DNA from: a virus
DNA length: 34,966 bases
Reading direction: 5' to 3' (one strand)
Virus record (IMG/VR): IMGVR_UViG_3300002835_000585
Coordinates: 1 to 34,966 of that record
Shown here: piece after piece, positions 1,557-21,100 of the stretch
Numbering within the stretch: position 1 is the stretch's first letter
How the letters are laid out: every line of letters begins with the position of its first letter
Translations under genes and position numbers: made by a program
The notes under the pieces: model-generated
Seen by the model: the letters and a program-made list of their open reading frames with translations, nothing else
Told to the model about the DNA's origin: nothing
Database searches by the model: none

Positions 1557-1565
1557 GCCTAACAA

Positions 1566-2549: not shown

Positions 2550-2974
2550 TGTTTGATTTAGTAGACGGCCTCATGACAATGAAGATGGACGTATATCGAC
2601 AAACTGAGCAGCAGGATAAAGATACTGGTGCAATGATAAGAGAGTTTTCTTTTATAAAAACAATTGATTGCTATGCTAGAGGAGTAATTACCGAAAGCAG
2701 AAATAGGTCTAACGATAGTCAGAAGTTTTCAAACAAGTATTCAAATAACCAGTATATTGAGGCTAGAACATCTGACAGATTAACTGCAAGAGATAAAGTT
2801 AAAAACATTAGAGATGTAAATGGGAAGCCTATCTGGTATGAGTTAAACTATCCAAGCGATACAGATACAGTTTTTGATGTTGTTGGAACTACACCAATAT
2901 CAGATCCATTTGGAAATGTTGTAGGATATAACTCTTCATTGCAAAGAGCGGAGAATCAGCAAATTGGCATCTGA
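2549..2974 (+). CDS. Head closure/stopper-like neck protein
   Basis: 141 residues, starting in a TAATG overlap with the adaptor gene. The sequence ('TMKMDVYRQTEQQDKDTGAM', 'IEARTSDRLTARDKVKNIRD', 'VFDVVGTTPISDPFGNVVGY') has the small beta-barrel pattern of head-closure (stopper) proteins such as SPP1 gp16. In those families the product joins the adaptor ring, retains packaged DNA and gives the tail docking face. The order capsid, adaptor, this gene, two further neck genes, tail tube is the conserved siphophage order and is the main support. No catalytic motif is expected or seen. Confidence 0.6.
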   Translation: MFDLVDGLMTMKMDVYRQTEQQDKDTGAMIREFSFIKTIDCYARGVITESRNRSNDSQKFSNKYSNNQYIEARTSDRLTARDKVKNIRDVNGKPIWYELNYPSDTDTVFDVVGTTPISDPFGNVVGYNSSLQRAENQQIGI

Positions 2975-3755: not shown

Positions 3756-4257
3756 TTATAAATTAGATGCAATGTTTGAAATAAGAAAGTTCCTGTGGAG
3801 CAGACTTACAGCACTTAATATATTCAATCAAGAAGACTACTACTCAGACAATCTAAATGAGACACTTGTCCCAATTGTTCCAGTCCAGCAACAGCCAGAG
3901 ATGAATCAGTTCTTGAGCGGAAAGAAGCACATAGTCTACGATAAGATAGGAATGTCTTATGAGAACAACTGGATGATATGCTGCGAACAGATTCTATTAA
4001 CCCTATATTCACCAGATCTCCTTGATATTGTTGAGATAAGAAACTTCCTAACTGATGAGTTTAGAAGAATGGATGAGTCTGCAAGGGATGTCAATAAATG
4101 GGCGGGACTATCAGATAAATTCAAGTTCCATAGTATCCATATAGCAGACATATCATCTACAGCCCCATCAGAAGAAATCAAAGGATTCTATGCAGCAGAT
4201 GTCATATTAGAGGTCAAATATTCAAGGATAACAAATGGCCAGGGCAGGTTTGCCTAA
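3748..4257 (+). CDS. Tail terminator-like protein
   Basis: 169 residues. The N-terminal helix ('EIRKFLWSRLTAL') followed by a strand region and 'VIVEIRNFLTDEF'-type helices resembles tail terminator proteins (lambda gpU / SPP1 gp17.1 families), which form the ring capping the tail tube and join tail to head. Lengths of 130-170 are normal. It overlaps the upstream neck gene by 8 bases and is the last gene before the tail tube promoter, the standard place for this function. No sequence motif is diagnostic, so the call rests on order, size and fold-like pattern. Confidence 0.55.
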   Translation: MANYKLDAMFEIRKFLWSRLTALNIFNQEDYYSDNLNETLVPIVPVQQQPEMNQFLSGKKHIVYDKIGMSYENNWMICCEQILLTLYSPDLLDIVEIRNFLTDEFRRMDESARDVNKWAGLSDKFKFHSIHIADISSTAPSEEIKGFYAADVILEVKYSRITNGQGRFA

Positions 4258-4258
4258 T

Positions 4259-4287
4259 TTGCCTTTTATAAGCTACTAGAGTAAAAT
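4259..4287 (+). promoter_or_regulatory. Candidate promoter for tail tube gene
   Basis: TTGCCT, 17-base spacer, TAAAAT, beginning just after the stop at 4257. The start would fall near 4294, giving a leader of about 65 bases with AGGAGG at 4346-4351 before the ATG at 4361. Unlike the other promoters it lacks a TGn extension. Confidence 0.5.
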
Positions 4288-4360
4288 TAGAACAGAGGAA
4301 AGGGCCTAGCCAGCCAAAATATATATATTAATTTCATATGAAATCAGGAGGCAATAAATC

Positions 4361-5128
4361 ATGGCATATCAAAATACAGGAGACGCCCGCAACATTCTTG
4401 TTGGAGCATCACCACTATTTTTATCAGTAGAAGATTCAACCGTAGATGGTTACGATAACAGCATGGAAGCAGGGGCAACCCCAGAAAACGCTTTTGTTGC
4501 AAACAAAAACCGTTTTGTACCAGCATTTTTGGCAGGAGAGTCTTATACTACAACATTAAACAAAGTTCTAACAACAACAGGTGCTACACAAACAGCAACA
4601 CCTTCAGAAAATACACCAAAGATTGGTGGAGCTTATCGTAACGTAGGTTACACAAATAACGGTCTTCAGATCAGTTATCAGCCAACATTCGATTCAGTAA
4701 CTGTAGACCAGTTGCTAGATACAGCTAAGCTTTTCAAGTCTGCTATGCAGGTTCAAATTTCAACAGAAATGGCAGAAGGCACACTAGAGAATATCCTAGC
4801 AGTATTTGGTCAAAAGGGATCAACACTAAACAAGGGTGCTGAGATTGACGTACTAGGTTTGGAAGCAGGTGCACTAGGTGCAGCTCCAACAGAGCGTCAG
4901 TTAATTGCAGTTGGACAGGCTCCAACAAGAGATGATTCAGGTGCTAATATCACATCAGAGCGTGTATACTATGCACGTCGTGTTTTGTCTGTTGAGCAGT
5001 CACAGTTCTCTTTGGCTCGTACAGCAGCAACAACATTCCCAGTGACATTCCGTCTTCTCCCATCAGGTGAAGCAAGCCACACTGGTTCAGAGTACGGTAA
5101 AATTATTGACCGTGTTCTATCAGCTTAA
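4361..5128 (+). CDS. Major tail tube protein
   Basis: 255 residues. It forms the stacked hexameric rings of the tail tube. It opens with 'MAYQNTGDARNILVGASPLF', a start style common in actinophage major tail proteins, has a central 'YTNNGLQISYQPTFDSVTVDQLLDTA' region (positions about 92-117, beta strands then a helix) and ends with strands ('YARRVLSVEQSQFSL', 'FPVTFRLLPSGEA'). It has a near-perfect AGGAGG site, its own candidate promoter and a strong terminator, and its CGT arginine use resembles the capsid gene, all fitting high output. It immediately precedes the tail assembly chaperones, the invariant place for this gene in siphophages. Confidence 0.82.
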   Translation: MAYQNTGDARNILVGASPLFLSVEDSTVDGYDNSMEAGATPENAFVANKNRFVPAFLAGESYTTTLNKVLTTTGATQTATPSENTPKIGGAYRNVGYTNNGLQISYQPTFDSVTVDQLLDTAKLFKSAMQVQISTEMAEGTLENILAVFGQKGSTLNKGAEIDVLGLEAGALGAAPTERQLIAVGQAPTRDDSGANITSERVYYARRVLSVEQSQFSLARTAATTFPVTFRLLPSGEASHTGSEYGKIIDRVLSA

Positions 5129-5147
5129 TTATATTAATAATTAATAT

Positions 5148-5181
5148 CAAAGCCCCCAAGAAATTGGGGGCTTTGCTGTTG
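5148..5181 (+). terminator. Intrinsic terminator after tail tube gene
   Basis: A perfect 12-bp stem (CAAAGCCCCCAA 5148-5159 with TTGGGGGCTTTG 5164-5175) closed by a GAAA tetraloop. The following tract (CTGTTGT) is only moderately T-rich, so some read-through into the chaperone genes is possible. Confidence 0.85.
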
Positions 5182-5198
5182 TACCCTTATAATGATTA

Positions 5199-5207
5199 TG
5201 CTATAAT
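5199..5207 (+). promoter_or_regulatory. Extended -10 promoter for tail assembly genes
   Basis: TGC-TATAAT, identical to 1124-1132. A weak TTGTAC lies at 5179-5184 with a 17-base spacer. The start would be near 5214, with AAGGAGG at 5224-5230 and the ATG at 5236. Confidence 0.72.
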
Positions 5208-5235
5208 AATTTAGACGATCCTTAAGGAGGATACA

Positions 5236-5568
5236 ATGGCAACAACAGTATATGACGTAGAAGAGATTGAACTACAAAGCGGAGCTAAAGTAAAGCTCAA
5301 GCCATTATCAATCAAGCAACTACGAAAGTTTATGGAAGTAATTAAGAAAGTTCAAGATGCAGAAGATGAAGCTGCAACACTTGGTATTTTGGTAGAAGCA
5401 TGCGGAGTTGCAATAGAAACTCAGCTACCAGATCTAGTTGCAGACCTAGACAAGCTAGAAGAAGCATTAGACGTTCCAACAATTAACCGCATCCTTGAAG
5501 TTTGCGGAGGAATTAAGATGGACGACCCAAACCTGATAGCGGCAGCAGTACTGGCTGGTCAGAACTAG
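5236..5568 (+). CDS. Tail assembly chaperone, short (G-type) product
   Basis: 110 residues when translation stays in frame to the TAG at 5566. The sequence ('EIELQSGAKVKLKPLSIKQL', 'AVGVAIETQLPDL'-type helices, 'INRILEVCGGIKMDDPN') is typical of the first chaperone, which binds the tape measure protein during tail assembly and is absent from the virion. A good AAGGAGG site lies 5 bases before the ATG. The last codons contain the CCCAAAC slip site at 5526-5532, so a fraction of ribosomes give the longer product. The tape measure gene follows, as in almost all siphophages. Confidence 0.85.
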   Translation: MATTVYDVEEIELQSGAKVKLKPLSIKQLRKFMEVIKKVQDAEDEAATLGILVEACGVAIETQLPDLVADLDKLEEALDVPTINRILEVCGGIKMDDPNLIAAAVLAGQN

Positions 5569-5903
5569 ATTTAGCCGCTTTAGAAGGCCAAGTTTTTCTT
5601 CTGGGACACTGGAAGAATTATGAAGAGCTAGAAGAAAATTTATCGATGCCAGAGTTGGTTCAAACCATAACAGCGATAAACCTAAAAGAGCACAACCAAA
5701 GAAAGTTTGCAGCATCACTAAAAGGAATACAATTAGATGATGATGTAGAAGAAGAAAAAAAAGGTTCTACCTTTGAAGATATCCAAAGAAGAGCACTTGG
5801 TATAACGGCATCAGCAGATGATGTTGTTGGATTACAGGGGCCATTCGCAGCACAAGCTGGATTTGGAATTGGCGCAGGGTTAGGATATTCTAGGAGTAAT
5901 TAA
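5236..5903 (+). CDS. Tail assembly chaperone, -1 frameshift (GT-type) product
   Basis: Joins about 99 codons of the short chaperone to about 123 codons in the -1 frame, for roughly 222 residues. The -1 frame is open from 5517 to the TAA at 5901 and gives a smooth continuation through the slip site, including 'GWSELDLAALEGQVFLLGHW' and 'NYEELEENLSMPELVQTITA', which read as the usual T part of actinophage chaperones. The only early ATG in that frame (5646) would remove this conserved-looking part and has no ribosome site, so I read it as an extension rather than a separate gene. The tail 'AQAGFGIGAGLGYSRSN' is Gly-rich. The stop overlaps the tape measure ATG by one base. Confidence 0.85.
5526..5579 (+). 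promoter_or_regulatory. Programmed -1 ribosomal frameshift site
   Basis: The heptamer C-CCA-AAC (5526-5532) is in the right phase of the upstream frame to be X-XXY-YYZ, allowing both tRNAs to re-pair at CCC and AAA. Six bases downstream, AGCGGC (5538-5543) can pair with GCCGCT (5574-5579) around a 30-base loop that spans the zero-frame stop at 5566; this is a candidate stimulator. Frameshifting between these two genes is conserved in tailed phages. Confidence 0.82.
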
Positions 5904-8900
5904 TGGCTGACGAACAAATTGTAACCAGTATAGTCGCCAAAGCCGACTTGTCTAGCCTTGTGTCTGAAGTACACAGGGCTAGTGCTAGTCTCCAGCAACT
6001 ACAAAGAGAACTCCTTGCATCAAACAAAGCAATATCTTCTTCAACAAAATTAGCAAATAATCTATTCAGAGATACCCTAACTGGAAGCGGACAGTTCTCC
6101 AGCCACTTTGTAAACCTTAATTCTGATGTAGATAAATTTGGTAAAAACTTAGATGCTGGTAGACTAAAGCTTAAGAACTATTTCCAAACATTTAGAGAGC
6201 ACTCTACAACTCAAAAGGGTATGATTAGGGAGCTTGCCAAAGAACAGGTAATGCTTCAAAATTCAGTACTGCAACCTCTGGGCAGAAATGCTCAAGGTTT
6301 AATGCAATACAATGTAATGATTCCTAGAGGCTTAGATGCAATAGCAAATAGCGGAAAATTAGCTCGCATGGAAATGCAGATTATGAATCGTGCATTATCT
6401 GAAGGAGCAGGCTCTTTAATTAACTGGGGTAAAAATACTCAGTGGGCAGGTAGACAGCTTACCGTAGGACTCACAGTTCCTCTCACTATGTTTGGAGCGG
6501 CAGCTGGAAAAGCATTTAGAGAAGCAGACGCAGAGCTTGTAAGATTAACAAAAGTTTATGGCGGTCTTGCAGCTACATCCGCTTCAGATTTAAGAGCAAT
6601 TAGAGAAGAAGTTGTTGAAACAGCAAAAGTTTTATCCAAGACAATGGGTGCATCTTTTAAAGAAACTATTGCGCTAGGTGCTGATATCGCGGCAACAGGA
6701 CAAACTGGCGACGAGCTCCTTGGATCAATTGCAGAAACAACAAGACTAGCAATACTCGGTGAAGTTGATAGACAAGATGCAATGAAAGCAACTCTATCAA
6801 TTCAAACAGCTTTCAAGCAAAATACAGAACAGTTAACAGAATCAATTAACTTTCTTAACGCAGTTGAAAACCAGACGTCAACAACTCTTAATGATCTAGT
6901 AGAAGCTATTCCAAAAGCTGGTCCAGTAATTCAGCAATTAGGTGGTGACGTTAAAGATTTAGCTCTTTATCTAACCGCAATGAGAGAAGGTGGAATCAGC
7001 GCATCAGAAGGTGCTAACGCTTTAAAGTCTGGTCTAGCCTCTCTTATTAATCCAACAAAGCAAACCGTTGGCATGATGTCAGAATTTGGCATAGATGTAA
7101 TGGGTATGGTTTCTAAGAATACAGGAGACACAACTGGTCTTCTTATGGATTTACAAAAAGCATTAGATTCACTTGATCCACTAAGTAAAGCAAGAGCAAT
7201 GGAGCAGATGTTTGGTAAGTTCCAGTTTGCAAGAATGAGCGCATTGCTTAATAACTTAGGCAAGCAAGGTAGCCAGACGCTTCAGGTTTTAGATCTAATG
7301 AAAGCAAGTACTGCAGATCTAGCAGATGTTGCCAGCCGAGAATTAAAAATGGTTACAGAGTCCGCATCTGGTAAATACAAGAGAGCTATAGAAGGCCTTA
7401 AGGCAGAGCTTGCAGATGTCGGAGAAGAGTTTCTTGGAGTTGCTACCAAGCTTATAAGCGCAGCCACAAAGATTTTGGATTTCTTTACTAAGTTGCCTGA
7501 TCCAATTAAAAAGGGATTAACATTTTTAGCTGGATTCACAGCACTAGTTGGTCCGCTTATCATGCTAACGGGTGTGCTCGCAAACTTCTTTGGATACATA
7601 ACTAAGGGAGTTGTTCAGCTAAGAGCATTCTTTATGAAGGCCAACGGCTGGAAGATGCTTACTCCAGAAATTATTGCTGCTGAAAAAGCAGCGCTTATGG
7701 TTGAGAATGCATTTTATTCAGATGCAGCAGCAGCTCAAGTTCTTCACAATGCGTTACAAAAGCTTGTTTTAGATTATCAAAGTCTACAAGCGGCATCAAT
7801 GAAAAATGCAGTTCCAGTAAATGGAGGAGTTAGCACTGTTGCTGGTAACCCAGTGATGGTTGGCGGAAGAAGAGTTGTAGACCCTAACGATCCATATGTT
7901 GGAGATCCTAACACTAGAGCAATGTCTCATATTAGACCAAGAGATCCAAATAATCCTGCAACTATATTTGGCGGAGTCCCAGGAGCTATCCCAGTTAATA
8001 GAGGTATATCAAGAACTCCTCAAATGTACATGCACGATAGGCTTCCAAATATTGAAGGACTAACAAGCGTAAAGGGAATATCAACAGGAATTGTTCCAGG
8101 AGAAGCAGCTAAATTCCATGCATTGATGGCTACGCTTGGAATGCAGACAGAGCAAGAAGTTGCAGCGCTAAAGAAAACAATTGCAATGGGTGGAACTGTA
8201 AGCGCAGAGCTGCTAGACACATTTGATGATATTCTGCCTATAACTAAAAGATTTGCAGATAGTGCCGCAACGCAAGCAGCATCTATTGTGCAACAAATGA
8301 GAAATGCAGAAATAACAGTTGAGCAAGCTAAGGCAAGAATACTTGCACTTAATGCACAGATAGAAGCAGATATGGGCTCTGCAGTAACAGCATATGCAGC
8401 TGGTCGAGGAAGAAGAATTGATTTAACAAGAGCTCCGATGATGGACCAACCAGTTGTTGATGCTAATGGCCAGTTTACATTAAGAGATCTTTATAAGAAA
8501 AAAACTAATGCTTCTGTTATGGAAGAATTTGGAAGACTACGTGGTGTTAGAACTTTTGGAGCACCATATAGTATTCAAACAACAAGGCTGCCTAAGTTTA
8601 ACATAGGTGGAGACATAGAATCATTTGGCCCAAACAAGACTATGGTTTCTGGACCGTCTTCAATTAATTACGACGACAGACTTGGAAGCGTTCCGCTGGG
8701 TGGATATGTTTTGAACCAGCAAGCTGCAATGGATCCAGCAAATGCCCCATTAGTTGCAATGGCTCCAAGCACATATTTAAATGACGGTGGAAATATTACA
8801 GCAGCTCTTACTCCACGGGAAGTAGTTTTTGGTCCTCAAATTCAAAGAATGCCTGAGCTTTATGCAGCAGTTGATGCCGCAAATAGCGGATACAATTTTG

Positions 8901-11900
8901 GTGGGCAGATCATGAGTGGCACATATGGGTATGGAAGAGAAAGCACTCTATCAATATGGGCAAGATTAGTTAACTCTAAGGATTATCCAAAAGTAATTAA
9001 AGCAGCAACAGTTGCTTCTGATGCTGCAATCCTTTCACAACTTACTGGAATGGATATTAAAGATGCCACAAAGAGAGTTTCTGCAGATTATGATTCAGCA
9101 ATAGAGCATGCTAAAAAAGCAGCAGCCAAAAATGGGACAAGAAAAACAGAAGAGTTTGTAAAGGCAAGAACAGCTCAGCTTATTAGATTAAGCAAAGAGT
9201 TCCCAGGTGCAAATTTAATTCTAGATGAATATTCAAATAAAAATAAGTACGATCAAAGTGCAAAAGCAGCTCGTATGAAAGCTATAGCTCCTCAGACATA
9301 TGCAGGAACAATGAGATCTGTCATTGACGATTTAGTAAAAGAAGGAGTTTTAACTCAATCTCAAGCAAACAAAGTCTTTGGAATTTTAGGCCAAACATCA
9401 GATACTTACGATCCAATTTCTAAATCTCATACTATGACTGCAAAAAGATCTGCTTCAATATTTAAGCCAGGAGAGTTGCAAGCCCTGCTTGTTGAAGAAG
9501 GAATGTCAAGAGCAGAAGCAGAAAAATATGCTGGTGTTACTGGAGTCAGATCAAATAATTTTGTTGGTCAATCTACTGGACTTTCAAAATCATTTAACAC
9601 AATGGGTAGATGGTTAGACGTCGCTACTGATGGAGCTTTTAGGGATGAAGTTTCACCATTTCAAGACGAAGCAAAAAGCAATTTTATATCAGGGATTAAA
9701 AGACTTAAAGCTAAGTTGGGAATTACAGGCCCCACAACAATGAGGGAAATCATTAGACAGCTTACCTTGATGAGAATAAAATCTGGAGTGGGCTATAACT
9801 CTAAAATGGTCACAACACTTGGTGGAAGGTTGGCGGGTAGGGGAATTTCTTTTGCAAAACCAGCACTAGGTCCACTTGCTGGAGCATTTAACAAGGGCGG
9901 AATGATTCCAGGTGGATCGATATCTAGAAACAGAAAAAATTATGGATTTGTGTCCCCAGCTCTAAGATTATTGGCGCCAGCACAACAACTTAAAATATTG
10001 CAGCAAGCTCGTGAAATGTCCGCTACAACACCTGCTGGATATATTCCAGCATCATATAGTCATTTGCTAACACCAAGCACAGGAAGAAGTTTCCCAGTTC
10101 CTGGAGTTGCTGGGGTTTATCAAAACGAAGAAAAGAAAAAGGTGTTCTTTAAAGCGGTTCCAAATGAAGTTAGCTTAACAGCAGAAATGCGTGGAACAGA
10201 AATTGGAAGAATCCTAGGTCTTGTAACTCCAGTTCAAGTTGCAAGATCAATTCGCAATCCACTGGACCCAACTGGCAAGTCTAGATTCCTTGGAGCAGAG
10301 TCAGATTACGATGAAGGCTTTATTAATCCAAATACATCAGTACCTGGAAAGTTTACTCAAGATGAAGTTTTAGATCAATTTATTGCATCAATGATTCTTG
10401 CAAATAAAGATTTGTCTAGATCAAATGTACACGGAAGAAGATTAGCAGATGTTGGCAACGGTGGAGTTTTAGCTAAAGCATCTATGAATGATGACTATGC
10501 AAAAACATTACCATCTATGGAAGAGATGGCACTGGCAAACTTGTTGCAAGTCAAGGGTGGATCTAGAAAAGATTTTGCTCGTGATACCGCTCCTATTATT
10601 GCAAAGATGACTGCAAAAGAATATGGCGATAAGATTAAAGAAAAGATGGAAGCCGCATATCCAGAATTAAAGAGATACATCAAGTCTCTTCCTAAAAAAG
10701 ATAGAAAGCCTTATGATGCATTGCTTAAGAGATTTGAAGAAGGAATGGATGTTGATTGGTCTAAGTATCATGCAATGCACGTTAATCCAAAATATCTTAA
10801 TGCTGGAGGACCAGTTGGTGGAGGCCCTGTTCAAAGAAGTAGATATGCTTATGGACGTAAAAAAGATGGATCTAGAGTATCAGGAAATCCAGCAAAAAGA
10901 GCTCAGCAGGAAAGATTAAAGGCTGAGCGATCAGTAACACCTGTATCTAGATCTGGATACACATCTTCAGGCAATCCTCAAATGCAAGTACAACAAATTC
11001 CTTATGTTGGCGGAGCTGGAGTTTTTGGAAACGCATTTGGTGCATCGCAAACTGGACAATCTCAGCAGGCTATAAACACTTTGAGACTTTCACAAATTGG
11101 TCAGCTTGCACCAGGAATAACTAGATCTTTTAAATCTTTAACTGACTCAATTAAATTAGGCACAGTAGGATTAAGATACGGAATTATGAATTCAGGAAAA
11201 TATCTGAGTTCAGCTTATGCAGATTATGCAAAAGAACGAATAAGCTCTGCAAGAATAACTACAAGAACTATTAGAGAAGGAATTTTAAGAGAGCAGTCTA
11301 AGAGGCTGTCTGCCGCATATCCAGGACAAATGATGCCTATGTATATTTCTGGCCCAGGCGCTGGTGTAGGAAACGTTGGAGCAGTTGGCGCTTGGAAAGA
11401 CTATGGAGAAGATGGAGTTAAGAGTCGTAAAGTAGGAACTTATGGCTATAGACGCAGAGAGTTCATGGATGCAAGTGGCAAGATCTATGACACAAAAGCT
11501 GCAAAAGCCGCAGGAATTGACACTAGGGTAAGAGGCGGAATGGGCATGGGTGCCCAAATGGGTATCGGAATGGCTGGCTCTATGGGCGCAATGTCATTAA
11601 TGCAACAGGAAAAAGTTTTGGGCATGAGCGGAATGACAGCTGGATTAGCTCTTATGGGTGCCTCCACTATAATTCCTATGTTGCCATGGAAAACAATTGG
11701 AAGCTCAGTAAAGTCAACCACAACTTCTGTAGTGGCATCAATTAAAGCTTTTAAAAGTGTTAAAGATGCAATTTCTGCAGTAGGCGCTTCTGCCAGTAAC
11801 TTTGTTACAAAGTTTAAAGCCCTTGGTGCAGTTTTATCAATTGTTTTGGTAGGGCTTGATACATGGAAGAAATACAACAATGCTCAGCAAGACGCTGCAA

Positions 11901-14900
11901 TGGGTTTATCTATTACTGCAGATGGTGCCGAACAAGCTGGAATTAAATACTTTAATCTTAATCAGTACTTAACAGACTATATTGAAAAGCAAAAATTAGC
12001 AAATGCTGCTGCTCAGGGATCAAAAAATAACTCAATCGGTATGCCTGGCATACCTCAGTCCGTAGATGAAATGAAAAAAGCAAAAGAAGAGGGCAAGGTT
12101 CTTAAAGACTTAATTGAATCAATTAATAGAACTTCAAGCACAGGAGAACTTCAAAGATTAATAAATAATCAAAAAGCACAATATATTGCAGGAGGATTAA
12201 GCGTAGAGCAATCAAACTCGATGATTTATGGAGCTATTGCTAATAGCAAAAAGGCCTCCCAGGCTTATAAGTTGCTAGCCGATCAAGGCTTCGGCGCAAT
12301 TGAAGACAGATCTTCTGCGGCAGAATTTGCTGTGGGCAACTTAGTAAAAACCATAAATGGAAATAAATCATCATTTTCTTTGTGGAAAGACAACGTTGAC
12401 TTTCAACCAAGCGATCTGCTTAATCCAATAACTTTCTCAACGAACCTATTTGATAGCTATGGTCAAACTTTTGCAGATGCTAACGCACAGAAAAAGGCGG
12501 TGGTATCTGGTTTTGAAAGCATGATTGGCATAGTTAACGCAGGCACTCAAGCGCTCATTGGAACAAAAAATGCTCAAGGAGATCTTATTGATGAGTTTGA
12601 AGCATATCAAACAATGTTGGCAAGCACAGAAAAGAATATACCTGAATTTAATATTCCAATTGGCAAAGATACTTACCAGACTTTGAAAGAGATGAGCCCA
12701 GAGCTAGAAAAGATTATAAACGAGTTTGATACATTAAAGTCAATTCTAGCAAAAACTAAACTGTTTACTTCTGGAATCAGTATTGACTTAAAGAGTATTG
12801 ATGCTGATTTAGCTATAAAGCTAGCTGGATTTACTGCAGCAATTGGATCAGGAATTGCTGATTTAACTGCTGCTGGCAATAGTGAAAATACATATGGAGC
12901 AACTGGTAAAGTATTAAAAAGACTACAAGAATCAATTTTAGCTACCTCTGCTGCTTCACAAAAAGCAGCTGCTGTTTCACAAAGAAACATTCAAGAAGAA
13001 ATAAAATTAATTGCTAAAAAAATTAGCCTTATTGAAGATGAAAAAAATAAAAAATTAGAATCTTTAAGAGCAACTCAAGACGCATCTAACTATGCATTAG
13101 AATTGCAAAAACTTCAAATAGAGTATGCAGACGCTGTTGCTCGTGGAGATGTTTCTGGTGCAGCCAGAGCAAGAATAAACATTGACCAGCTTACAGCTAA
13201 TAGACAGGCAGACTTAGCTGAAAAAGCAATACAAGATGAAGCAGCTAGACTAAAAGCTATTGAGCAAAAGAAAATAGATGCAAAGCAAGCTGCAGCTGAT
13301 AAAAAAGCAATTGCTTTCCAGAACAGACAAGATAATGCAACAAATGCTGCTGCAGTTATGGATGTAGTTAAAGGATTTAAAGCAACTTACGATGAGATAA
13401 CCGCTTTAAGAATAACAAATAGCATGATGCCAGAAAGCGAAGCAAAAAGAAAAGCGGAGGGAGAGCTTGTTGGTAAGCTAAGCGACCTGCTTAAAAAAGT
13501 AGGCGTAGCAGGAACTGGATCAAGTGAAACTGCAAAAGCCATAAGAGAATCTTTTGCCCAGTACTTTAATAAAGATGGAACAATAAAGAAAGTTTATGTT
13601 GAATCTCCTGGTTTACCTGCCGCTACAAACAGTGGTGTAACCTCAACAACAATTACCACTCTAAATAAAGATATATTGAAGATCCTTGATAGAGATGTTG
13701 CTTTGGTATCAAGTATGGCTACTCAGATTACTGGAGGTAAAGGCTACTCGATAAAAACAATGACTGAAGAAATTGTTGCTGCACTAAAAGGTACCTCTAA
13801 AACAGTATATGGCGGAAAATCAAAGGATGTATTCGGTATGGATATGCTTATAAACACATTGCTACCGTCCCAACAAGGAAAGATCAATAAGTTTGCAAAA
13901 GAAAAGGGATATAAAGCAGGACAGCAATTTACTTTAAAAGAGTCTAATGGAATTCTAAAAGAATTCATAGTTTTAAATGATGGAACTGTTAAGTTTGTAA
14001 AAAATACTAGTCCAACATATGCCAGCGGCGGTAAGGTTACAGGCCCAGGAACTGGAACATCAGATTCTATTCCAGCAATGCTTTCAGATGGTGAATATGT
14101 AATTAAAGCATCTTCTGTTGCAAAGTACGGCGTAGAAACACTTGATGCATTAAATGCACAAAAGTTGCATAAGGGAGGGCCAGTTGGTCATAGACACGGA
14201 AGAAATTTACCAGGGTCTCTATTCAGATGGAAGTCATATCCTGAAGATATGCCAGATTACTGGAGTGATGGAAGCCCATCAGGAAGCCCTTATACTCAAA
14301 GATGGGGAGCGCTAAGATACGGTCCTGCTAAGGGTAAAGATATTTGGGGCGGAACAGAGATACCAGGTCTTAGGTTTGACGGAAAAATAGCTAATCGTTC
14401 AGATTACTGGCATCAGATAGCCGAGCAGCCTGTTAAATATAGTGGCCCAGGAATGGCTCTTGACAAGGATCCAATGCGTTACGCAGGCTCTGGTGCTTCT
14501 ATGAGTGGTATCGGCAATGGAGTGTACGGTGCAGGATCGTGGCTAACCTTTGCTAATGGCGGCCCAGTAGGCAATAAAAATAAAAACGGTAATTGGTTTA
14601 GCAGATTTAATCCAGTAAATTCAATATCCTCAATGCTTTCTGGCATGTTTAGCTTTGGTGCATCTAAGGCTGTAAACCAGAATGTTAATGTTCAGTCTAC
14701 TATGACTCAGCAAGAAAAAGATAGAGCTCTACTGCAAACAGTACAAATGCTTTCAGGTTATACATCAGCATTTAATCTAAAAAATAGCACAAGCCCAGAA
14801 ATTGCTGGAAGCCAAAAGCTAGGAACCGCAGCAGACGTATTGGGCGTACTTCCACTTATTGGAGGTCTTAGCAAGATAACTAAATTACCAGGCGTCGCTG

Positions 14901-17542
14901 CAAAATCTAAATTAGTTACACCAGATATTAGTCTAACACCAGCTGGTCCTTTATCTAGTTTTAATGCTGCTAAGTATGAGGGAAAAAATATAAGTGCTAA
15001 GAACATGCAAAAGTTTTTATCAGATGTGCTTGGAGATGTATCTTTACCAGCAATAAAAGCAGAAAAATTACCATGGAACATTGCAGGGCAGTATGTCCCT
15101 AGGTTTGCAGATAAATCTTCTAATTATGAAAATTTGCTTCCGCATATTCTTCTTAATTCAAATCATAAAACAAGTGGTCAAACTGCAGTGCATGAAACAA
15201 TGCATCATTTTGATTTTGAAACGCACAACACATTTAAAAGAACACTTGAAATGTTACGCAAATCTGGTAAATATGATTTAGCAGATAGATACGAATCTGT
15301 CTATGTAAATGCAGAAAAACAGCAAAAGGGTCTTGGTTTTGCAACCTGGGAAGATTATGCAATTGGCCAAAAAGACATTGATAGCATTGCTTGGAGTAAC
15401 GGAGCAGCTGAAGCCTTTGCTGACGAAAATACATTTAAAGCATACCTAAACTTTGTAAATAGCAAGAGCCTAAAAGATAAAATGCTGGCTTCAAAAATTG
15501 GCAATACATACGGTCCAGGCCTAGGAACAGATAATTTAAGAGGATACTTTAAAACTTTTAGAATGTTTGAGCAAAATGCTTTAGCTCTTCCTTTAAGACT
15601 TAATCCACAATTCCTAAAAGGCTTTATAGATAATTCTCCAAATATGCCTGAAAAAACAAAAACTATTTACCAGATGTGGCAAGAAGGACTTCAAGAATTT
15701 AATCCAGCAGCTTATGTATCTAAACCAGAAGAGCTCCCAAATTCTGTACAATATAAAAAATTCAAAGACTATATTACTAGTCTTAACCTAGATAAAGCCA
15801 AGGGATACCATAAGGGCGGTCCAGTAGGGCATAAGCATGAAAACTTCTTTAGTAGATTTAATCCAGCAAACGTGTTTGCATCAATTACAAATGGCATGTT
15901 TGGATTTGGAGCAAGTAAGGCATTTAATAAAAATATATCAGCTCCTAAAATAGATCAATCTGAAACAGATTTAGCGGCATTGCAAACAGCACAAATGTTA
16001 ACTGGATACACTTCAGCATTCAATTTAAAAAATAAAACAAGCCCAGAAATTTTTGGAAGTCAGAATCTGGGTGTAGCTGCAGACGTTCTTGGAGTATTGC
16101 CAGGACTTGGGCTGGCATCAAAACTTACAAGGCCTATCACTAAGCCAATCACGTCAAAAATTGCAGTAGATGCTTTTACTCCTATAAAAGTAAATGCCAA
16201 GATTAAAGAAACTTTACTAGGGCCATCTGCATTATCCCCATATGAATCAGCAATGATTAAAGCAGAGAAGCTTGCAAAGGCTGGCAAGTTTACGCCAATT
16301 GAAAAATTAGGTACTGTTAAATATGAAGATCTTTTGAAAGAAGCTAGAAATCTTACAGAGCATACTGGAACATTTCCAACACCTAAAGGAGATTATTCAT
16401 TTAAATTTAAACCAGCTCAAATAGATCAGTACCCACCAGAGTCAACTTTTAAAAGCGGAATTTCAGGAATACAAGAAAATATGTACGGAAACGAGTGGGT
16501 TGGCCCAATGCACAATATCGAAGTGTATGCTCCAGACGGCTCAGTTGCAGGCAATATAACTTGGGATTCTATAACTGGAACAATTAGATTGATAGGAGTA
16601 AACCACAACCACCGAAAGCTTGGCATAGCAAGATTTATGAATGAATACGGCGCATCTATTACTAGAATAAAGCATTCTAAGCAAAGAACAGCAGATGGTG
16701 TAGGTTACTCCGAAGCAATTGGAGGAATTATGCCTAACATGCCATTCATATCCCCTGGCAAAGTTACTTTAGCCTCCCTGGTATCTAATGCTGCAAATAG
16801 CAGGCTGGCAGCATTGCGTTCAAAATTAATACCTGGAAAACCTTATACTCCTAAGCCATATTCTGAACCACAGCCAAGCGAAGCTCAGTTAGCTTATGAT
16901 GCACAATATGCAGCTCGTATGGAAAAGCAGAGGCTAGCCGTAGAGGCAGCAGGCAAGGCACAGTATGAGGCATTAATTGCATGGAGAAAGAATCCAAATC
17001 GTACATATAATTCATATCCATTTGGCCACGGCAGCTATGTAGAAATGATAGATGATCTTGACCTAAGACTTTTGATGAAACAGGGAAATGATACTCCAGC
17101 TACTTGGCCTTGGAAAAACCCTTATCTTCCACCGATTGCAAGCAGGGCACCACATTCACGCCCAGGATCAAATATCTGGTCTGAAAATGGTTATGGGCAC
17201 ACAAGTGATGCAGCTGGCGGATACATAAACAACACTGGATTAAACCTTACTAACTCTATGAGCACTGCATTTTCTAGATTGGGAGTACCTCAATTTGAAA
17301 ATGGTATTAATATGGTTCCTGCAAATATGCTGGCAATGCTTCATAAAGATGAAGCTGTTATCCCAGCTAATATGAACCCATTTAATCCAAATGCATCGGC
17401 GGCTGTATCAGGTTCAGTATATAATATTAACGTAGAATTAAATGGAACTAATGTAACAGCACAAGATGTTGCAACTCAAATACACAGAGAGATGAGATTA
17501 AAGGAAATGGCAGCTGGAGTAAATAGAAGGGTTGGTGGGTAA
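5903..17542 (+). CDS. Giant tape measure protein with embedded enzyme-like domains
   Basis: 3,879 residues, far beyond usual tape measures (600-2,000). It is packed inside the tail tube, sets tail length and is released at DNA entry. N-terminal coiled coil, then a TP901-type core at about 190-420 ('LTVPLTMFGAAAGKAFREAD', 'LYLTAMREGGISASEGANAL'), membrane-like helices at about 536-565, 1880-1930 and 1974-1990, and a coiled coil at about 2353-2480. Gly-Gly linkers recur (about 900, 960, 1331, 1633, 2708, 2757, 2885, 3304), several followed by the tape-measure 'LSDGEYVI'/'LHKDEAVI' motif. Between them lie a kinase-like domain (1395-1625), a metallopeptidase-like domain with HETMH (3050-3270) and a GNAT-like domain (3525-3612). 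The C-terminus 'YNINVELNGTNVTAQDVATQ' is typical. At 1.5 angstroms per residue a fully extended ruler would be near 580 nm; folded inserts make the true tail shorter. It overlaps neighbours in TAATG at both ends. Confidence 0.9.
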   Translation: MADEQIVTSIVAKADLSSLVSEVHRASASLQQLQRELLASNKAISSSTKLANNLFRDTLTGSGQFSSHFVNLNSDVDKFGKNLDAGRLKLKNYFQTFREHSTTQKGMIRELAKEQVMLQNSVLQPLGRNAQGLMQYNVMIPRGLDAIANSGKLARMEMQIMNRALSEGAGSLINWGKNTQWAGRQLTVGLTVPLTMFGAAAGKAFREADAELVRLTKVYGGLAATSASDLRAIREEVVETAKVLSKTMGASFKETIALGADIAATGQTGDELLGSIAETTRLAILGEVDRQDAMKATLSIQTAFKQNTEQLTESINFLNAVENQTSTTLNDLVEAIPKAGPVIQQLGGDVKDLALYLTAMREGGISASEGANALKSGLASLINPTKQTVGMMSEFGIDVMGMVSKNTGDTTGLLMDLQKALDSLDPLSKARAMEQMFGKFQFARMSALLNNLGKQGSQTLQVLDLMKASTADLADVASRELKMVTESASGKYKRAIEGLKAELADVGEEFLGVATKLISAATKILDFFTKLPDPIKKGLTFLAGFTALVGPLIMLTGVLANFFGYITKGVVQLRAFFMKANGWKMLTPEIIAAEKAALMVENAFYSDAAAAQVLHNALQKLVLDYQSLQAASMKNAVPVNGGVSTVAGNPVMVGGRRVVDPNDPYVGDPNTRAMSHIRPRDPNNPATIFGGVPGAIPVNRGISRTPQMYMHDRLPNIEGLTSVKGISTGIVPGEAAKFHALMATLGMQTEQEVAALKKTIAMGGTVSAELLDTFDDILPITKRFADSAATQAASIVQQMRNAEITVEQAKARILALNAQIEADMGSAVTAYAAGRGRRIDLTRAPMMDQPVVDANGQFTLRDLYKKKTNASVMEEFGRLRGVRTFGAPYSIQTTRLPKFNIGGDIESFGPNKTMVSGPSSINYDDRLGSVPLGGYVLNQQAAMDPANAPLVAMAPSTYLNDGGNITAALTPREVVFGPQIQRMPELYAAVDAANSGYNFGGQIMSGTYGYGRESTLSIWARLVNSKDYPKVIKAATVASDAAILSQLTGMDIKDATKRVSADYDSAIEHAKKAAAKNGTRKTEEFVKARTAQLIRLSKEFPGANLILDEYSNKNKYDQSAKAARMKAIAPQTYAGTMRSVIDDLVKEGVLTQSQANKVFGILGQTSDTYDPISKSHTMTAKRSASIFKPGELQALLVEEGMSRAEAEKYAGVTGVRSNNFVGQSTGLSKSFNTMGRWLDVATDGAFRDEVSPFQDEAKSNFISGIKRLKAKLGITGPTTMREIIRQLTLMRIKSGVGYNSKMVTTLGGRLAGRGISFAKPALGPLAGAFNKGGMIPGGSISRNRKNYGFVSPALRLLAPAQQLKILQQAREMSATTPAGYIPASYSHLLTPSTGRSFPVPGVAGVYQNEEKKKVFFKAVPNEVSLTAEMRGTEIGRILGLVTPVQVARSIRNPLDPTGKSRFLGAESDYDEGFINPNTSVPGKFTQDEVLDQFIASMILANKDLSRSNVHGRRLADVGNGGVLAKASMNDDYAKTLPSMEEMALANLLQVKGGSRKDFARDTAPIIAKMTAKEYGDKIKEKMEAAYPELKRYIKSLPKKDRKPYDALLKRFEEGMDVDWSKYHAMHVNPKYLNAGGPVGGGPVQRSRYAYGRKKDGSRVSGNPAKRAQQERLKAERSVTPVSRSGYTSSGNPQMQVQQIPYVGGAGVFGNAFGASQTGQSQQAINTLRLSQIGQLAPGITRSFKSLTDSIKLGTVGLRYGIMNSGKYLSSAYADYAKERISSARITTRTIREGILREQSKRLSAAYPGQMMPMYISGPGAGVGNVGAVGAWKDYGEDGVKSRKVGTYGYRRREFMDASGKIYDTKAAKAAGIDTRVRGGMGMGAQMGIGMAGSMGAMSLMQQEKVLGMSGMTAGLALMGASTIIPMLPWKTIGSSVKSTTTSVVASIKAFKSVKDAISAVGASASNFVTKFKALGAVLSIVLVGLDTWKKYNNAQQDAAMGLSITADGAEQAGIKYFNLNQYLTDYIEKQKLANAAAQGSKNNSIGMPGIPQSVDEMKKAKEEGKVLKDLIESINRTSSTGELQRLINNQKAQYIAGGLSVEQSNSMIYGAIANSKKASQAYKLLADQGFGAIEDRSSAAEFAVGNLVKTINGNKSSFSLWKDNVDFQPSDLLNPITFSTNLFDSYGQTFADANAQKKAVVSGFESMIGIVNAGTQALIGTKNAQGDLIDEFEAYQTMLASTEKNIPEFNIPIGKDTYQTLKEMSPELEKIINEFDTLKSILAKTKLFTSGISIDLKSIDADLAIKLAGFTAAIGSGIADLTAAGNSENTYGATGKVLKRLQESILATSAASQKAAAVSQRNIQEEIKLIAKKISLIEDEKNKKLESLRATQDASNYALELQKLQIEYADAVARGDVSGAARARINIDQLTANRQADLAEKAIQDEAARLKAIEQKKIDAKQAAADKKAIAFQNRQDNATNAAAVMDVVKGFKATYDEITALRITNSMMPESEAKRKAEGELVGKLSDLLKKVGVAGTGSSETAKAIRESFAQYFNKDGTIKKVYVESPGLPAATNSGVTSTTITTLNKDILKILDRDVALVSSMATQITGGKGYSIKTMTEEIVAALKGTSKTVYGGKSKDVFGMDMLINTLLPSQQGKINKFAKEKGYKAGQQFTLKESNGILKEFIVLNDGTVKFVKNTSPTYASGGKVTGPGTGTSDSIPAMLSDGEYVIKASSVAKYGVETLDALNAQKLHKGGPVGHRHGRNLPGSLFRWKSYPEDMPDYWSDGSPSGSPYTQRWGALRYGPAKGKDIWGGTEIPGLRFDGKIANRSDYWHQIAEQPVKYSGPGMALDKDPMRYAGSGASMSGIGNGVYGAGSWLTFANGGPVGNKNKNGNWFSRFNPVNSISSMLSGMFSFGASKAVNQNVNVQSTMTQQEKDRALLQTVQMLSGYTSAFNLKNSTSPEIAGSQKLGTAADVLGVLPLIGGLSKITKLPGVAAKSKLVTPDISLTPAGPLSSFNAAKYEGKNISAKNMQKFLSDVLGDVSLPAIKAEKLPWNIAGQYVPRFADKSSNYENLLPHILLNSNHKTSGQTAVHETMHHFDFETHNTFKRTLEMLRKSGKYDLADRYESVYVNAEKQQKGLGFATWEDYAIGQKDIDSIAWSNGAAEAFADENTFKAYLNFVNSKSLKDKMLASKIGNTYGPGLGTDNLRGYFKTFRMFEQNALALPLRLNPQFLKGFIDNSPNMPEKTKTIYQMWQEGLQEFNPAAYVSKPEELPNSVQYKKFKDYITSLNLDKAKGYHKGGPVGHKHENFFSRFNPANVFASITNGMFGFGASKAFNKNISAPKIDQSETDLAALQTAQMLTGYTSAFNLKNKTSPEIFGSQNLGVAADVLGVLPGLGLASKLTRPITKPITSKIAVDAFTPIKVNAKIKETLLGPSALSPYESAMIKAEKLAKAGKFTPIEKLGTVKYEDLLKEARNLTEHTGTFPTPKGDYSFKFKPAQIDQYPPESTFKSGISGIQENMYGNEWVGPMHNIEVYAPDGSVAGNITWDSITGTIRLIGVNHNHRKLGIARFMNEYGASITRIKHSKQRTADGVGYSEAIGGIMPNMPFISPGKVTLASLVSNAANSRLAALRSKLIPGKPYTPKPYSEPQPSEAQLAYDAQYAARMEKQRLAVEAAGKAQYEALIAWRKNPNRTYNSYPFGHGSYVEMIDDLDLRLLMKQGNDTPATWPWKNPYLPPIASRAPHSRPGSNIWSENGYGHTSDAAGGYINNTGLNLTNSMSTAFSRLGVPQFENGINMVPANMLAMLHKDEAVIPANMNPFNPNASAAVSGSVYNINVELNGTNVTAQDVATQIHREMRLKEMAAGVNRRVGG
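10079..10780 (+). other. Embedded kinase-like (HipA/PI3K-fold) domain in tape measure
   Basis: Residues about 1393-1625. Seen: a beta-rich start with 'GVYQNEEKKKVFFKAVPNEV' in which K1417 could be the ATP-binding lysine; a helix 'TAEMRGTEIGRILGLVTPVQ' with E1428/E1433 placed as the alpha-C glutamate; and 'ILANKDLSRSNVHG' with D1503 and N1508 spaced like a kinase catalytic loop (DxxxxN), followed by 'DVGNGGVLAKASMND' where the metal-binding loop would be. This pattern matches the HipA/phosphatidylinositol-kinase-like domains found in phage virion and toxin proteins. The final 'Asp' position of the metal loop is uncertain. The call is fold-level inference. Confidence 0.5.
14594..14878 (+). repeat. 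Tape measure duplicated module, copy 1
   Basis: Residues about 2898-2992, from 'WFSRFNPVNSISSM' through 'SGYTSAFNLKNSTSPEIAGS' to 'AADVLGVLPLIGGLSK'. It matches copy 2 (15845-16128) closely and, like it, follows a GGPVG linker and precedes an enzyme-like domain. Confidence 0.85.
15050..15720 (+). other. Embedded zinc-metallopeptidase-like domain in tape measure
   Basis: Residues about 3050-3272. A helix carries 'TAVHETMHHFDFE': H3097-E3098-x-x-H3101 is the HExxH zincin motif. About 70 residues later 'GAAEAFADE' offers E3170 (or D3174) as a third zinc ligand, the gluzincin-like arrangement in which an E/D-rich helix follows HExxH. Flanks are mainly helical. This could cut peptidoglycan cross-links or a protein during entry, or mature the tape measure itself. 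Substrate is unknown. The domain sits between the two copies of the duplicated module. Confidence 0.62.
15845..16128 (+). repeat. Tape measure duplicated module, copy 2
   Basis: Residues about 3315-3409, from 'FFSRFNPANVFASI' through 'TGYTSAFNLKNKTSPEIFGS' to 'AADVLGVLPGLGLASK'. It aligns with copy 1 almost without gaps, 417 residues downstream, and follows the linker 'YHKGGPVGHKH'. Confidence 0.85.
16470..16740 (+). other. Embedded GNAT-like acyltransferase domain in tape measure
   Basis: Residues about 3524-3613. Two antiparallel strands ('HNIEVYAPDGSVAGNITWD', 'GTIRLIGVNHNHRKLGIARF') lead into N3567-H-N-H-R-K-L-G-I-A, the GNAT motif A turn (Q/RxxGxG/A) that binds acyl-CoA pyrophosphate. 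The helix 'GIARFMNEYGAS' and the end 'KHSKQRTADGVGYSEAIGG' resemble short phage GNAT-like domains ('HS..RT..G..(W/Y)..(A/S)(V/I)GG'). The substrate is unknown and activity not demonstrated; the domain may be only structural. Confidence 0.6.
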
Positions 17543-18138
17543 TGAGTTTTCAAAACTTAGCAAAAGGATCTGTGTTATATATCGAAGCAATTGACCCATT
17601 TGCAATTAATACTGCAAACAATACTTTTAACTACAAGGGTGAAACAATTACTCCACCAGGAAATGTTTATCCTGCCTATGATGCTCTAACAAAAACTTGG
17701 CCGCTACGATACGAGGATAGAGCGGATTTAAAATTTAGAAGAGTTACAGAGCATAATAGAGACCCCCTTGCCATAACTACAAATAGAATTGAATCTAGCC
17801 AAAGAATGTCAAATGGAACACTAAGAAAATATTTTATTGCCGATAAGTTAAATATAAGTGTATCCTGGGAAATGCTACCATCATTTAGAAATGAAACAGT
17901 AGATGGTGGATGGGGTGCAGAAGACATAAAGAATTTTTATGAGTCAGATGCAGGAAGAGGATCTTTTAGGATAAAACTAAATCCAACGGTATTTAATCCA
18001 TCCCTAATAACTGCTGATGCTGGCACCTTGGCCGATGATTATACTTATACGGTAATGTTTACCTCATGTGACTTTACTGTCCTTAAAAGAGGCTTGCAGA
18101 CCTTCTGGAGTGTATCTATATCAATGGAGCAGGTATGA
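17542..18138 (+). CDS. Distal tail / minor tail protein
   Basis: 198 residues, starting in a TAATG overlap with the tape measure gene, the usual place of the distal tail (Dit-like) protein. Seen: 'LNISVSWEMLPSF' then 'ETVDGGWGAEDIKNFYE' and 'GRGSFRIKLNP', a beta-rich pattern recurring in actinophage minor tail proteins. Such proteins form a ring at the tail tip, linking tube to hub. The C-terminal 'YTVMFTSCDFTVLKRGLQTF' is a beta strand pair. It overlaps the hub gene by 4 bases (ATGA). No carbohydrate-binding insertion is obvious at this length. Confidence 0.68.
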   Translation: MSFQNLAKGSVLYIEAIDPFAINTANNTFNYKGETITPPGNVYPAYDALTKTWPLRYEDRADLKFRRVTEHNRDPLAITTNRIESSQRMSNGTLRKYFIADKLNISVSWEMLPSFRNETVDGGWGAEDIKNFYESDAGRGSFRIKLNPTVFNPSLITADAGTLADDYTYTVMFTSCDFTVLKRGLQTFWSVSISMEQV

Positions 18139-21100
18139 TAACTGTAAGTAATACAACTAAGAATTTAATTAAGCGGGGGTCATCAATAAAAACTTCTGCA
18201 AGTGCAACAATGGAATATAACTTAAACTCCATGGTTGAATATATAAAAGCAACAACTACACCAGCAGAGATAGTTAATACATATTCAGCTGCTTTTAAGA
18301 AATTGTTCCCAATAGATACAATATATAAACCATTTAGACCTGTGTCCCCAGGAATTAAATATTTAGTTTATACAAAGGATGCATCTGGAAATCAAACAGA
18401 CTCACCACGTCAAGATTTGTATGAAAATCCTAGGGACGTAGCTTTTTTGGGTAAGCCTAGATTATACTACCCTGGCCCAGAGATGACATATAAATATTGG
18501 CTTGCTCCTAAAAATACAAACATTAGTGTTTCTTTAGAATATTTTTCAAATGAAGCAAAGACTACCGTAAAGCTAGTCCCTGCAAATAAAATTATCGCAA
18601 GATTTGAAACTAATCACGACACACCGCTGTCTTGGACAATATCTGTAGTTAAGGAAGACAACTCAGTCGTAAATGTAACTGGAACATCTCTTAATGAAAA
18701 CGGGGAGGCAGTGATATATTATGATGGAGATGCATGGTCAACAGATGAACCTGGTGAATATACTACAACTCAAAAGTTAAAAAAAATAACTTTATCTGCA
18801 ACAAACAGAATGAATGGTAAATTACTTGGTGTAATTGAATTGAGTCCAAGGTGGGTAGTAGACATAAGTTCAGACATAGTATCACTTACTGTTAATAAAG
18901 AAACAACAGCAGATAGCGACTCTGTTGTTCCAGTTGGAGTGATTACAGCAAACTACTTAAGCTTATCTTTATTTAGGCAGCACGGCGAAACATCTAGATC
19001 AATGATGGAGTATAACGTAAAAGATGATATAGATGATACAAAGCTGTATCTATTTAAAAATGCAATTATAAAACCATATATTAATATTGGAGACGTAGAT
19101 CCAGAAAAAGTAACTCAGGGTATATTTTATGCCAACTCATGGACTCTTTCTGAATTTGGAGAAGCCACCATTGATGCAACCGATGCAGCAAAAATATTAC
19201 AAGATACTGTTTGCCCACAATTATTAGTTCAAGATTCACCAGTAACTTCAGTAATAAAAAGAGTACTTGACGCTGTTGGGTTTTCTAATTACAATATTAA
19301 CATAAAGATGACTAATGGCGAGGTTGATGATGACTCAATTCCATCTCTAACCTATTGGTGGTGTGATGGAGATAAAACAGTTTGGGAAGTATTGCAAGAG
19401 TTATGTAGAGATATTCAGATGAACGCGTTTGTAAATGAAAATAATATCTTAAACTTCTATAGCAGAAATGTAATTTATGACGCAGGCACCCCATCAAGTT
19501 GGGTATTTACAGATAAAGAAATTACCAGTGGAGGTGTTGTTGATTATGCACCAAGCATAGCAAGCTTGTCATCAAGAGAAATGTTTTCTGCAAATCAGGT
19601 TACTGTAAAATACTCTTCAGCATCTACTTCGGTAAATAGCACCTCTAGCCAGCCTTTATGGACATCTTCTGATTCGTTTCTTGGAGCTGGCAGACTTGAT
19701 GACGATATTGTAGACAGTAGCACAATGTTCAAGCTAAAACCAAATACAATAAATAAAGATAGAATTGATAAGGTGCTAGATGCTTTTAGTGGTTATGTTT
19801 TAATTAACGATGAGATAATTGAGTACGACGGGCTTTGGTATCAATATGTTCCCAAAGAAAAAGATTATTCGTTTGATCCACCACGTGATAAGCCTGCAGT
19901 TCGAGTTCTAATGAAAAGCCAATCAGATTTTTGGAAGTACGAAGCTTTGGCAAAACCAGGGTCTAAGTATTTTTTTCCAACTGGGGAGTACAATATTAAG
20001 ACCAGGGGAGCGCTTGGCACACTGAAAAACAAAAGGAATCATCAAAAGCAGGTAACTTCTTATATTAACGATGTAGGTCAAAATGATCCAAATAAATTTA
20101 AACCTTATTCAGTTTCTCTGGGAGAAACAGCTATTACAAAATGGACAGGCGGAAACCTAACTGCGCCAGCAAATCCGAGATTTGATAGTAAATCTAAAAA
20201 CTTTTTGATGATATCAAGCTTAATTAAAGAAAAAAAACAAGTTAATTTATTAATAAAGCCATTTAATACAATTAACACAGGATCTTTATATATGGCATGC
20301 GGAACCAGAATGTTTTTTGATAGCCAGCTAGTAAGCCCAGCTCAGGTTGGAGGCATTGCATTTTGCTTAGACTCAACTGGCCAAAATGGCTACTATGTTC
20401 TAATACGTACTACAGCTTATGCTGTTTTAGAAAACGACATAATGATTGTAAAAGTTCAAAATGGAAAGATTACTGTTTTAAAAGATAGTCAGCAAACATC
20501 TCCAAAGACTTTGGCTGGAATATATGCAGGCCAATCTTACAACATAGACGTACTTGTTAAGTCTCAAATACATTCTACATCAGACATTTTGATTAAAAAT
20601 ACGATTACTGTTTTTATTAATGGATTTAAGATAAGAGCGGTTGATGTTGGAAGTGATTCTACAAACCAATACATTCCACCACTTGCTATTACAAAAAATA
20701 TAGCAGTTCATTGTGGGCGTGGCATGTCCTACTTTGATTTTTTATACGCAAAGAGTATTGATGAAGCTCTTTATAATCAAAGATCCACAGTGTCATCATA
20801 CAAACACGTTGGCTCTTATGCAGACGACACAATTTCTATGCTATACGGAGATTTAATTTATAATAATGGGAACACACTCGCAGACCAAAATGGAGCACTA
20901 ATTGAGTTTGGAACAACCGCAAGAGAAATAAGAAAGGTAAAAATTGCTTACGATCCAGACGAAAGGCCTGCCTTACCTATTATGTTTAGAACTTCCAAAA
21001 ATCCTTACGCTACAGTCCTTGACCAAAGGCTCCAGCCATTTTCTGCGGAGACGTATATTTTAAACAATACATCCACCTCAGTTGTTTTGCACGATAGCGA

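Follow-up and report, generated by a model that had tools for sequence, protein, structure and literature searches.

Exchange of enzyme-like domains between close relatives suggests that a giant phage tape measure protein doubles as a reloadable enzyme carrier

The tape measure gene and its relatives

The window, the whole stretch of DNA analysed here, is an entire virus record of 34,966 bases with a G+C content of 38%. The gene under study is its largest tail gene, located between the major tail and chaperone genes and the minor tail genes (Table 1). A head protein (phrog_1623), a head-tail adaptor and an Ig-domain tail gene lie on its 5' side, and a minor tail protein (phrog_10359) and, further on, a DnaB-like helicase lie on its 3' side. 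A Pfam search of the whole 3,879-aa protein gave PF10145 alone, with no MuF domain, and phrog_10030 was the best among many matching tape measure families, in agreement with the original prediction of a tape measure with the usual core. The ORF length was also confirmed, although its description as exceptional is tempered by the 5,002-aa tape measure of P23-45 (PMC10770324). Neither tRNA genes nor tandem repeats were found in the window. Two tail-region ORFs at 22685-26341 (1,218 aa) and 26350-29115 (921 aa) had at most a weak PHROG match and are candidate receptor-binding proteins.

Table 1. Features of the tape measure gene, in window coordinates
Feature	Residues	Position	Strand	Basis
Tape measure protein gene, 3,879 aa		5903..17542	+	ATG to stop; PF10145 E 1.5e-26, phrog_10030 E 9.2e-119
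PhageMin_Tail core domain	240-438	6620..7216	+	PF10145 match, E 1.5e-26
Slot 1	about 1005-1331	8916..9895	+	no DNA match to relative L014; flanks match 91-94%
Atypical-kinase-like domain	1380-1640	10040..10822	+	model; invariant K1417, E1428, D1503, N1508, D1516
GPGTGTSDSIPAMLS-type stretch	2709-2757	14027..14173	+	phrog_23013; ends conserved part
Linker GGPVGHRH	2758-2765	14174..14197	+	linker search
W module (D-WGG-EIPGL)	2782-2878	14246..14536	+	recurrent in relatives
Leader copy 1, precedes zincin	2893-2991	14579..14875	+	DNA repeats, protein comparison
Zincin-like domain	3025-3300	14975..15802	+	HExxH 3097-3101 (15191-15205); candidate third ligand E3170
Linker GGPVGHKH	3305-3312	15815..15838	+	linker search
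Leader copy 2, precedes GNAT	3310-3407	15830..16123	+	DNA repeats, protein comparison
GNAT-like segment	3440-3630	16220..16792	+	family profile; matched core about 3533-3609
Conserved C-terminal end	3795-3879	17285..17542	+	77-100% identical in those compared loci (9 of 10) that reach it

The gene order is the same as in Streptomyces phage Tomas (Stanwilliamsviridae), which has a tape measure of 2,094 aa. When window positions 1-25000 were compared with phage records by megablast, the head gene was the only matching part among the matches listed, with 73-76% identity over 1-2% of the query in at least 42 Streptomyces records. The N-terminus of the tape measure was 31-34% identical to those of Streptomyces phages, again among the matches listed. 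By these similarities, the source virus is a phage related to the Streptomyces Stanwilliamsviridae. A host search with the kinase alignment found no relative in genome contigs, and the linker likewise had no match there.

Relatives of the tape measure were collected as 41 distinct ORFs, retrieved with queries for the kinase, zincin, leader, GNAT and linker; frequencies among them are not prevalences. Intact 3,868-aa ORFs occur on three contigs from independent records (L001-L003, L013-L015). Other intact ORFs include that of L008 (3,925 aa) and range from 2,738 aa (L033) to 4,573 aa (L038). The possibility that an assembly error had fused separate genes is negligible: it was ruled out by giant ORFs that are intact in numerous independent records, and the window's own set of enzyme-like domains was found on three further contigs.

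The kinase-like, zincin-like and GNAT-like segments

A kinase-like segment had been predicted at about residues 1393-1625. The structure model built from a 17-sequence alignment reached a pLDDT of 78.4 and a pTM of 0.80, with a weak part (pLDDT <50) at model residues 139-152. In a Foldseek search of the PDB, the best match was the kinase CtkA (E 1.0e-3, probability 1.00), and none fell below 0.001. The leading VIA matches were all kinases, with Z values of 11.3 for CtkA (rmsd 4.8, 212 aligned), 11.2 for CotH, 10.3 for PI4KII beta, 9.4 for HipT and 8.2 for HipA, on a scale where best values of 7-8 are common by chance and values up to 14 occur with mostly helical models. The five residues named in Table 1 were invariant in all 17 sequences. 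We take K1417 to be the catalytic Lys, D1503 and N1508 the catalytic Asp...Asn, and D1516 the metal Asp. The model and the invariant residues support a HipA/CtkA/PI4K-like atypical kinase fold in this region. The omega values of 0.19-0.31 in diverged pairs indicated purifying selection.

In a viral structure library, the kinase fold was also present in large phage proteins with several domains that go by the name of ADP-ribosyltransferase or portal protein. The kinase type of polyvalent proteins is described as having no C-terminal subdomain (PMC5512222); in the window model, residues 192-248 form C-terminal helices, while the model is weak at 139-152. The original prediction regarded the kinase as cargo like the other two segments. 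This was not borne out: the kinase is located within the conserved region, and therefore does not count as cargo in the way that the zincin and the GNAT do. The window-type kinase (KinA) held this core position in 20 of the 41 ORFs. Its relatives lay in the exchangeable zone in two (L098:831-1682; L101:8964-9776, minus strand), with 35-36% identity to the core kinase of the window.

The zincin-like and GNAT-like segments were characterized through motifs and profiles. Within the predicted metallopeptidase-like region (3050-3272), H3097, E3098, H3101, D3104 and E3170 were invariant in six aligned sequences, the window and five others that were 23-60% identical to it, and E3170 may be the third zinc ligand. 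Profile-profile comparison joined the zincin subfamilies at 97.4%, 96.0% and 89.2%. Comparison of the zincin profile with solved structures gave nothing significant, the best match being astacin (E 0.21). For the predicted GNAT-like region (3524-3613), the profile of the window family matched that of a second family at 98.5% (E 3.9e-15), compared with 0.3% for an unrelated control. Six of the nine members of the joint GNAT alignment matched Pfam Acetyltransf_1 below threshold (best E 1.8e-4); the window's own copy matched no Pfam family. The GNAT profile gave nothing significant against solved structures, and its chance-like best matches were SH2 domains (E 0.017). A joint model of both segments, built from a 7-row alignment, had a pLDDT of 41. 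Its best Foldseek matches were acetyltransferases at E 0.05 or worse, and it gave neither a zincin nor a GNAT fold. Support for these putative zincin and GNAT assignments came from motifs and profiles, and the model did not add to it.

The HExxH motif was concentrated in the tail part of the relatives. Among the 37 of 41 ORFs that had the dividing motif, the 35,757 residues of the tail part held 13 HExxH motifs, against a mean of 0.43 and a maximum of 5 in shuffled sequences; these 13 were carried by 11 ORFs, with homologous copies counted separately. The 63,677 residues of the core part held none, where shuffles averaged 0.12. A chance origin of the observation was rejected from this enrichment, the recurring linkers and the intact ORFs of the relatives. 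None of the three window segments had a match worth naming in Pfam, PHROG or NCBIfam, where weak chance matches alone appeared. Among 50,697 phage records, neither the kinase query (331 aa) nor the zincin and GNAT query (661 aa) found a relative at E 0.01.

Degenerate or pure spacer domains that merely lengthen the ruler could also be envisaged. Some segments match no model, and TM4 tails were shortened by the mt3 deletion (PMC1796659). However, the zincin omega values were 0.35-0.41 in diverged pairs, indicating purifying selection; the value of 1.0 between the window and L014 is based on five changes. Omega below 0.41 in diverged pairs and the invariance of catalytic residues at 23-60% identity make a pure spacer very improbable.

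Exchange of domains between constant parts

Gly-Gly stretches flank all three segments, as had been claimed. The exchangeable domains are joined by linkers with the consensus H-x-GGPVGH[KR]H. We found 40 linkers of the form GG[PLA][VIA]GH[KR]H in 31 of the 41 ORFs, a frequency that is partly built in because the linker was among the queries that fetched them; 39 of the 40 had a His two residues before. The GGPVGH codons occurred in 25 distinct DNA versions among 30, which shows synonymous variety alone, since only third-position changes are possible. The linker could serve as a hinge or a cleavage site. The original prediction missed a leader of about 100 aa, present in two copies as shown by the DNA repeats D1, D4 and D5 at a spacing of 1,248-1,251 nt. 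The GPGTGTSDSIPAMLS-type stretch before the first linker occurs too in tape measures of cultured phages. In many relatives a W module of about 100 aa (D-WGG-EIPGL...DPMRYAGSGASM) lies between linkers, and L109 has two copies.

On the evidence of sequence comparison, residues ~2970-3797 are an exchangeable slot (slot 2) between the conserved body and the conserved C-terminal end. The DNA of the window and L008 was 93% identical over 867-14810 (14 kb) and 97.9% identical over 17294-20753 (3.5 kb). Between these, at 14811-17293 (2.5 kb), there was no colinear match, and only a 130-nt leader and two linker-sized stretches matched, out of register. Protein identity per 100 aa was 25-37% over residues 3001-3800 and then returned to 100%. 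These two comparisons are to be trusted over the table of pairs, in which the values for this pair (80% upstream, 0% of the tail) are distorted by merged low-identity alignments. The L008 slot contains a distant zincin and a distant GNAT, each about 27% identical to that of the window. This exchange was like for like, zincin for zincin and GNAT for GNAT, which counts against a reloadable cargo. In other pairs, the type of domain changed. L054 and L073 were 98% identical upstream and shared 21% of the tail, with kinase B in one and an ART-like domain in the other by motif reading. Other domain types were exchanged between L038 and L139 (90% upstream, 10% of the tail shared) and between L006 and L121 (85% and 16%). 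The combination of enzyme types in one protein had been called unusual. Several enzyme-like types are indeed present, but what stands out is that relatives differ in their combination.

A second variable place, slot 1, precedes the kinase. Its two alleles in the relatives belong to a single distant family. In the 13 of 15 segments that could be cut out, identity was 67-94% within the window's type (four sequences), 51-96% within the other type (nine sequences) and about 22-33% over part of the length between types. L014 illustrates this variation: its slot 2 is 97-99% identical to that of the window, and it differs in slot 1 instead. Synonymous divergence between the window and L014 was highest in the core (0.261), followed by leader 1 (0.181), the kinase (0.135) and the C-terminal end (0.117); it was lower in leader 2 (0.042), over residues 1700-2760 (0.028), in the GNAT (0.016) and in the zincin (0.006). 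This range of about 40-fold within one gene is as expected from recombination and points to several histories.

The cargo of the relatives was sorted into families defined from 26 seed segments drawn by eye. At least one recognised tail-zone family was present in 33 of the 41 ORFs. The other eight comprised four that run off their contigs and four complete ones (L024, L033, L034 and L047), of which L047 is probably a different kind of protein. In the slot of relatives, motifs marked several families with HExxH and others that are ART-like. No library searched backed an ADP-ribosyltransferase identity for ArtA-ArtF, and the label is kept as a by-eye motif reading. KinB (kinase B) was recognised by motif, with invariant K, E, D-x-H-x-GN and DFG; neither its profile nor the ART-like profiles gave anything significant against solved structures. 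Kinase C was ABC1/APH-like at a sub-threshold E of 1.7e-4. "BigX", a cargo segment of about 575 aa in L038 (3880-4455 of the ORF) and L096, matched no Pfam or PHROG family.

Wall-active domains were also found. CHAP occurred in the slot of L020 and L021 (E 4.6e-13), LysM in that of L021 (E 1.1e-12), and the tail zone of L094 held a peptidoglycan-binding domain of the OmpA family (E 2e-17), with relatives in L043, L096 and L133. The cultured Streptomyces cousins Tomas and Blueeyedbeauty have an M23 peptidase near the tape measure C-terminus (E 1.6e-24 and 2.2e-26). These domains, and the precedent of TM4 mt3 (PMC1796659), would fit a slot for cell-wall penetration only, with all domains, zincins included, binding or cutting peptidoglycan or envelope proteins. 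We consider this unlikely in view of the kinase fold with intact catalytic residues and the GNAT-like domains. Such domains are not known to have a substrate or a supply of cofactors in the envelope.

The neighbouring genes were conserved while the slot content changed. The gene directly downstream (17542-18138) was 67-98% identical in nine loci with different or equal cargo, and no cargo-specific immunity gene was found there in these loci. This conservation also bears on a role in the producing cell at tail assembly, in which the zincin would trim the tape measure and the kinase and GNAT would have tail or chaperone proteins as their substrates. Other phages are known to process their tape measures, and the kinase sits in the conserved core. 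Domains with such a role should be conserved, yet the slot contents change beside conserved tail genes. None of the cargo families was recognised in the complete relatives L024, L033 and L034, which makes the cargo dispensable. An assembly role is improbable on these grounds.

A possible enzyme carrier and its known counterparts

The exchange of enzyme-like domains between close relatives suggests that the tail ruler doubles as a reloadable carrier of enzymes that would enter the host before the viral DNA. Delivery by an early-ejected tape measure, as originally proposed, is a reasonable hypothesis. By sequence, the tape measure combines a constant body and a constant C-terminal end with a slot exchanged by recombination; this slot probably carries cargo, part of which would be active in the envelope and part, probably, in the cytosol. 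Near-identical phages differ in the enzyme-type domains of this slot, and we infer that these domains are delivered and enzymatically active. In mycobacteriophage Douge, the baseplate hub holds the C-terminus of the tape measure, which is believed to be the first component to leave the tail (PMC13033339). The 85 constant C-terminal aa of the window protein would, by analogy, dock in the tail tip. This would place the slot distally in the tail lumen, just behind the tip and among the first parts expelled. Peptidoglycan-dependent domains, namely CHAP, LysM and OmpA in relatives and M23 in the cousins, would act in the envelope. The kinase and GNAT would act in the host cytosol, modifying host or defence proteins before or during DNA entry; they would have to enter the cytosol because they need ATP and acetyl-CoA. 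The zincin may act in the envelope or the cytosol, or cut the tape measure protein itself. The narrow tail tube counts against the cargo reading, since folded domains of 20-30 kDa must unfold or pack within it, and so does the dispensability of the cargo.

As Tomas and Blueeyedbeauty hold M23 near the same end, the wall-cutting position may be ancestral and later widened to other cargo. The downstream gene does not vary along with the cargo, and no dedicated immunity protein is therefore apparent at that position. This is consistent with an infection effector rather than a colony toxin. Tentatively, and with somewhat less than even confidence, we suggest a tail-borne counterpart of polymorphic toxins. 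Zincins, kinases, acetyltransferases, probable ADP-ribosyltransferases and wall-active domains would form a shared pool of effector cassettes, recombined into the tape measure behind a standard linker and leader. In this way a phage lineage would fire differing combinations of enzymes into the host before the genome, with host defence or core physiology as the probable target.

The window protein resembles the polyvalent proteins of Iyer et al. (2017; PMC5512222), in which one large polypeptide has peptidase, kinase, GNAT and ART-type domains and is predicted to enter the host together with the DNA. It likewise has several effector-type domains in one polypeptide, with the zincin and GNAT assigned by motif and profile. 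The carriers of polyvalent domains are head, MuF or portal proteins or plasmid-borne, in contrast to the tail ruler here, and the word "tape" does not occur in the available text of PMC5512222 or of a viral NAD/ADPr survey (PMC9503650). The MuF polymorphic toxins of temperate phages (PMC5576092) also join a constant virion part to exchangeable effector domains. Unlike these, the window protein has no MuF match, its constant C-terminus follows the variable zone, and the downstream gene is independent of the cargo. Polymorphic toxins have a C-terminal variable domain, whereas 85 conserved aa follow the slot here.

Other tape measures carry enzymatic domains. That of P23-45, with a fused RNA polymerase, is similarly giant and full-size in virions; however, the polymerase is N-terminal, and the available text reports no exchangeable slot (PMC10770324). 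TM4 mt3 (PMC1796659) and the M23 of Stanwilliamsviridae, the latter at the same end, are also enzymatic inserts, but are limited to peptidoglycan hydrolysis. Tme, an effector of a Streptomyces contractile injection system, is tape-measure-like with a C-terminal endonuclease. It differs in being non-phage, with a single C-terminal domain and domain exchange proposed only as a tool (PMC11126660).

In the open-access literature searched, no tape measure with an exchangeable slot for several enzymes was reported. Virion-carried phage effectors are described mainly as head- or portal-associated (PMC5512222, PMC9503650). A polymorphic slot in a tape measure would open a second effector route, earlier than the DNA. 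It also points to a natural site for cargo in tail-based protein delivery. In a large survey of mosaicism in phage proteins, tape measures gave a mosaic signal, but genuine recent cases could not be confirmed (PMC10684548). The pairs window/L008 and L054/L073 look like genuine recent cases.

Separately from the tape measure, the Ig-domain tail gene (4361-5128) was 68% identical to that of L008, while its neighbours were 98-99% identical. From this comparison, it is another locally exchanged gene.
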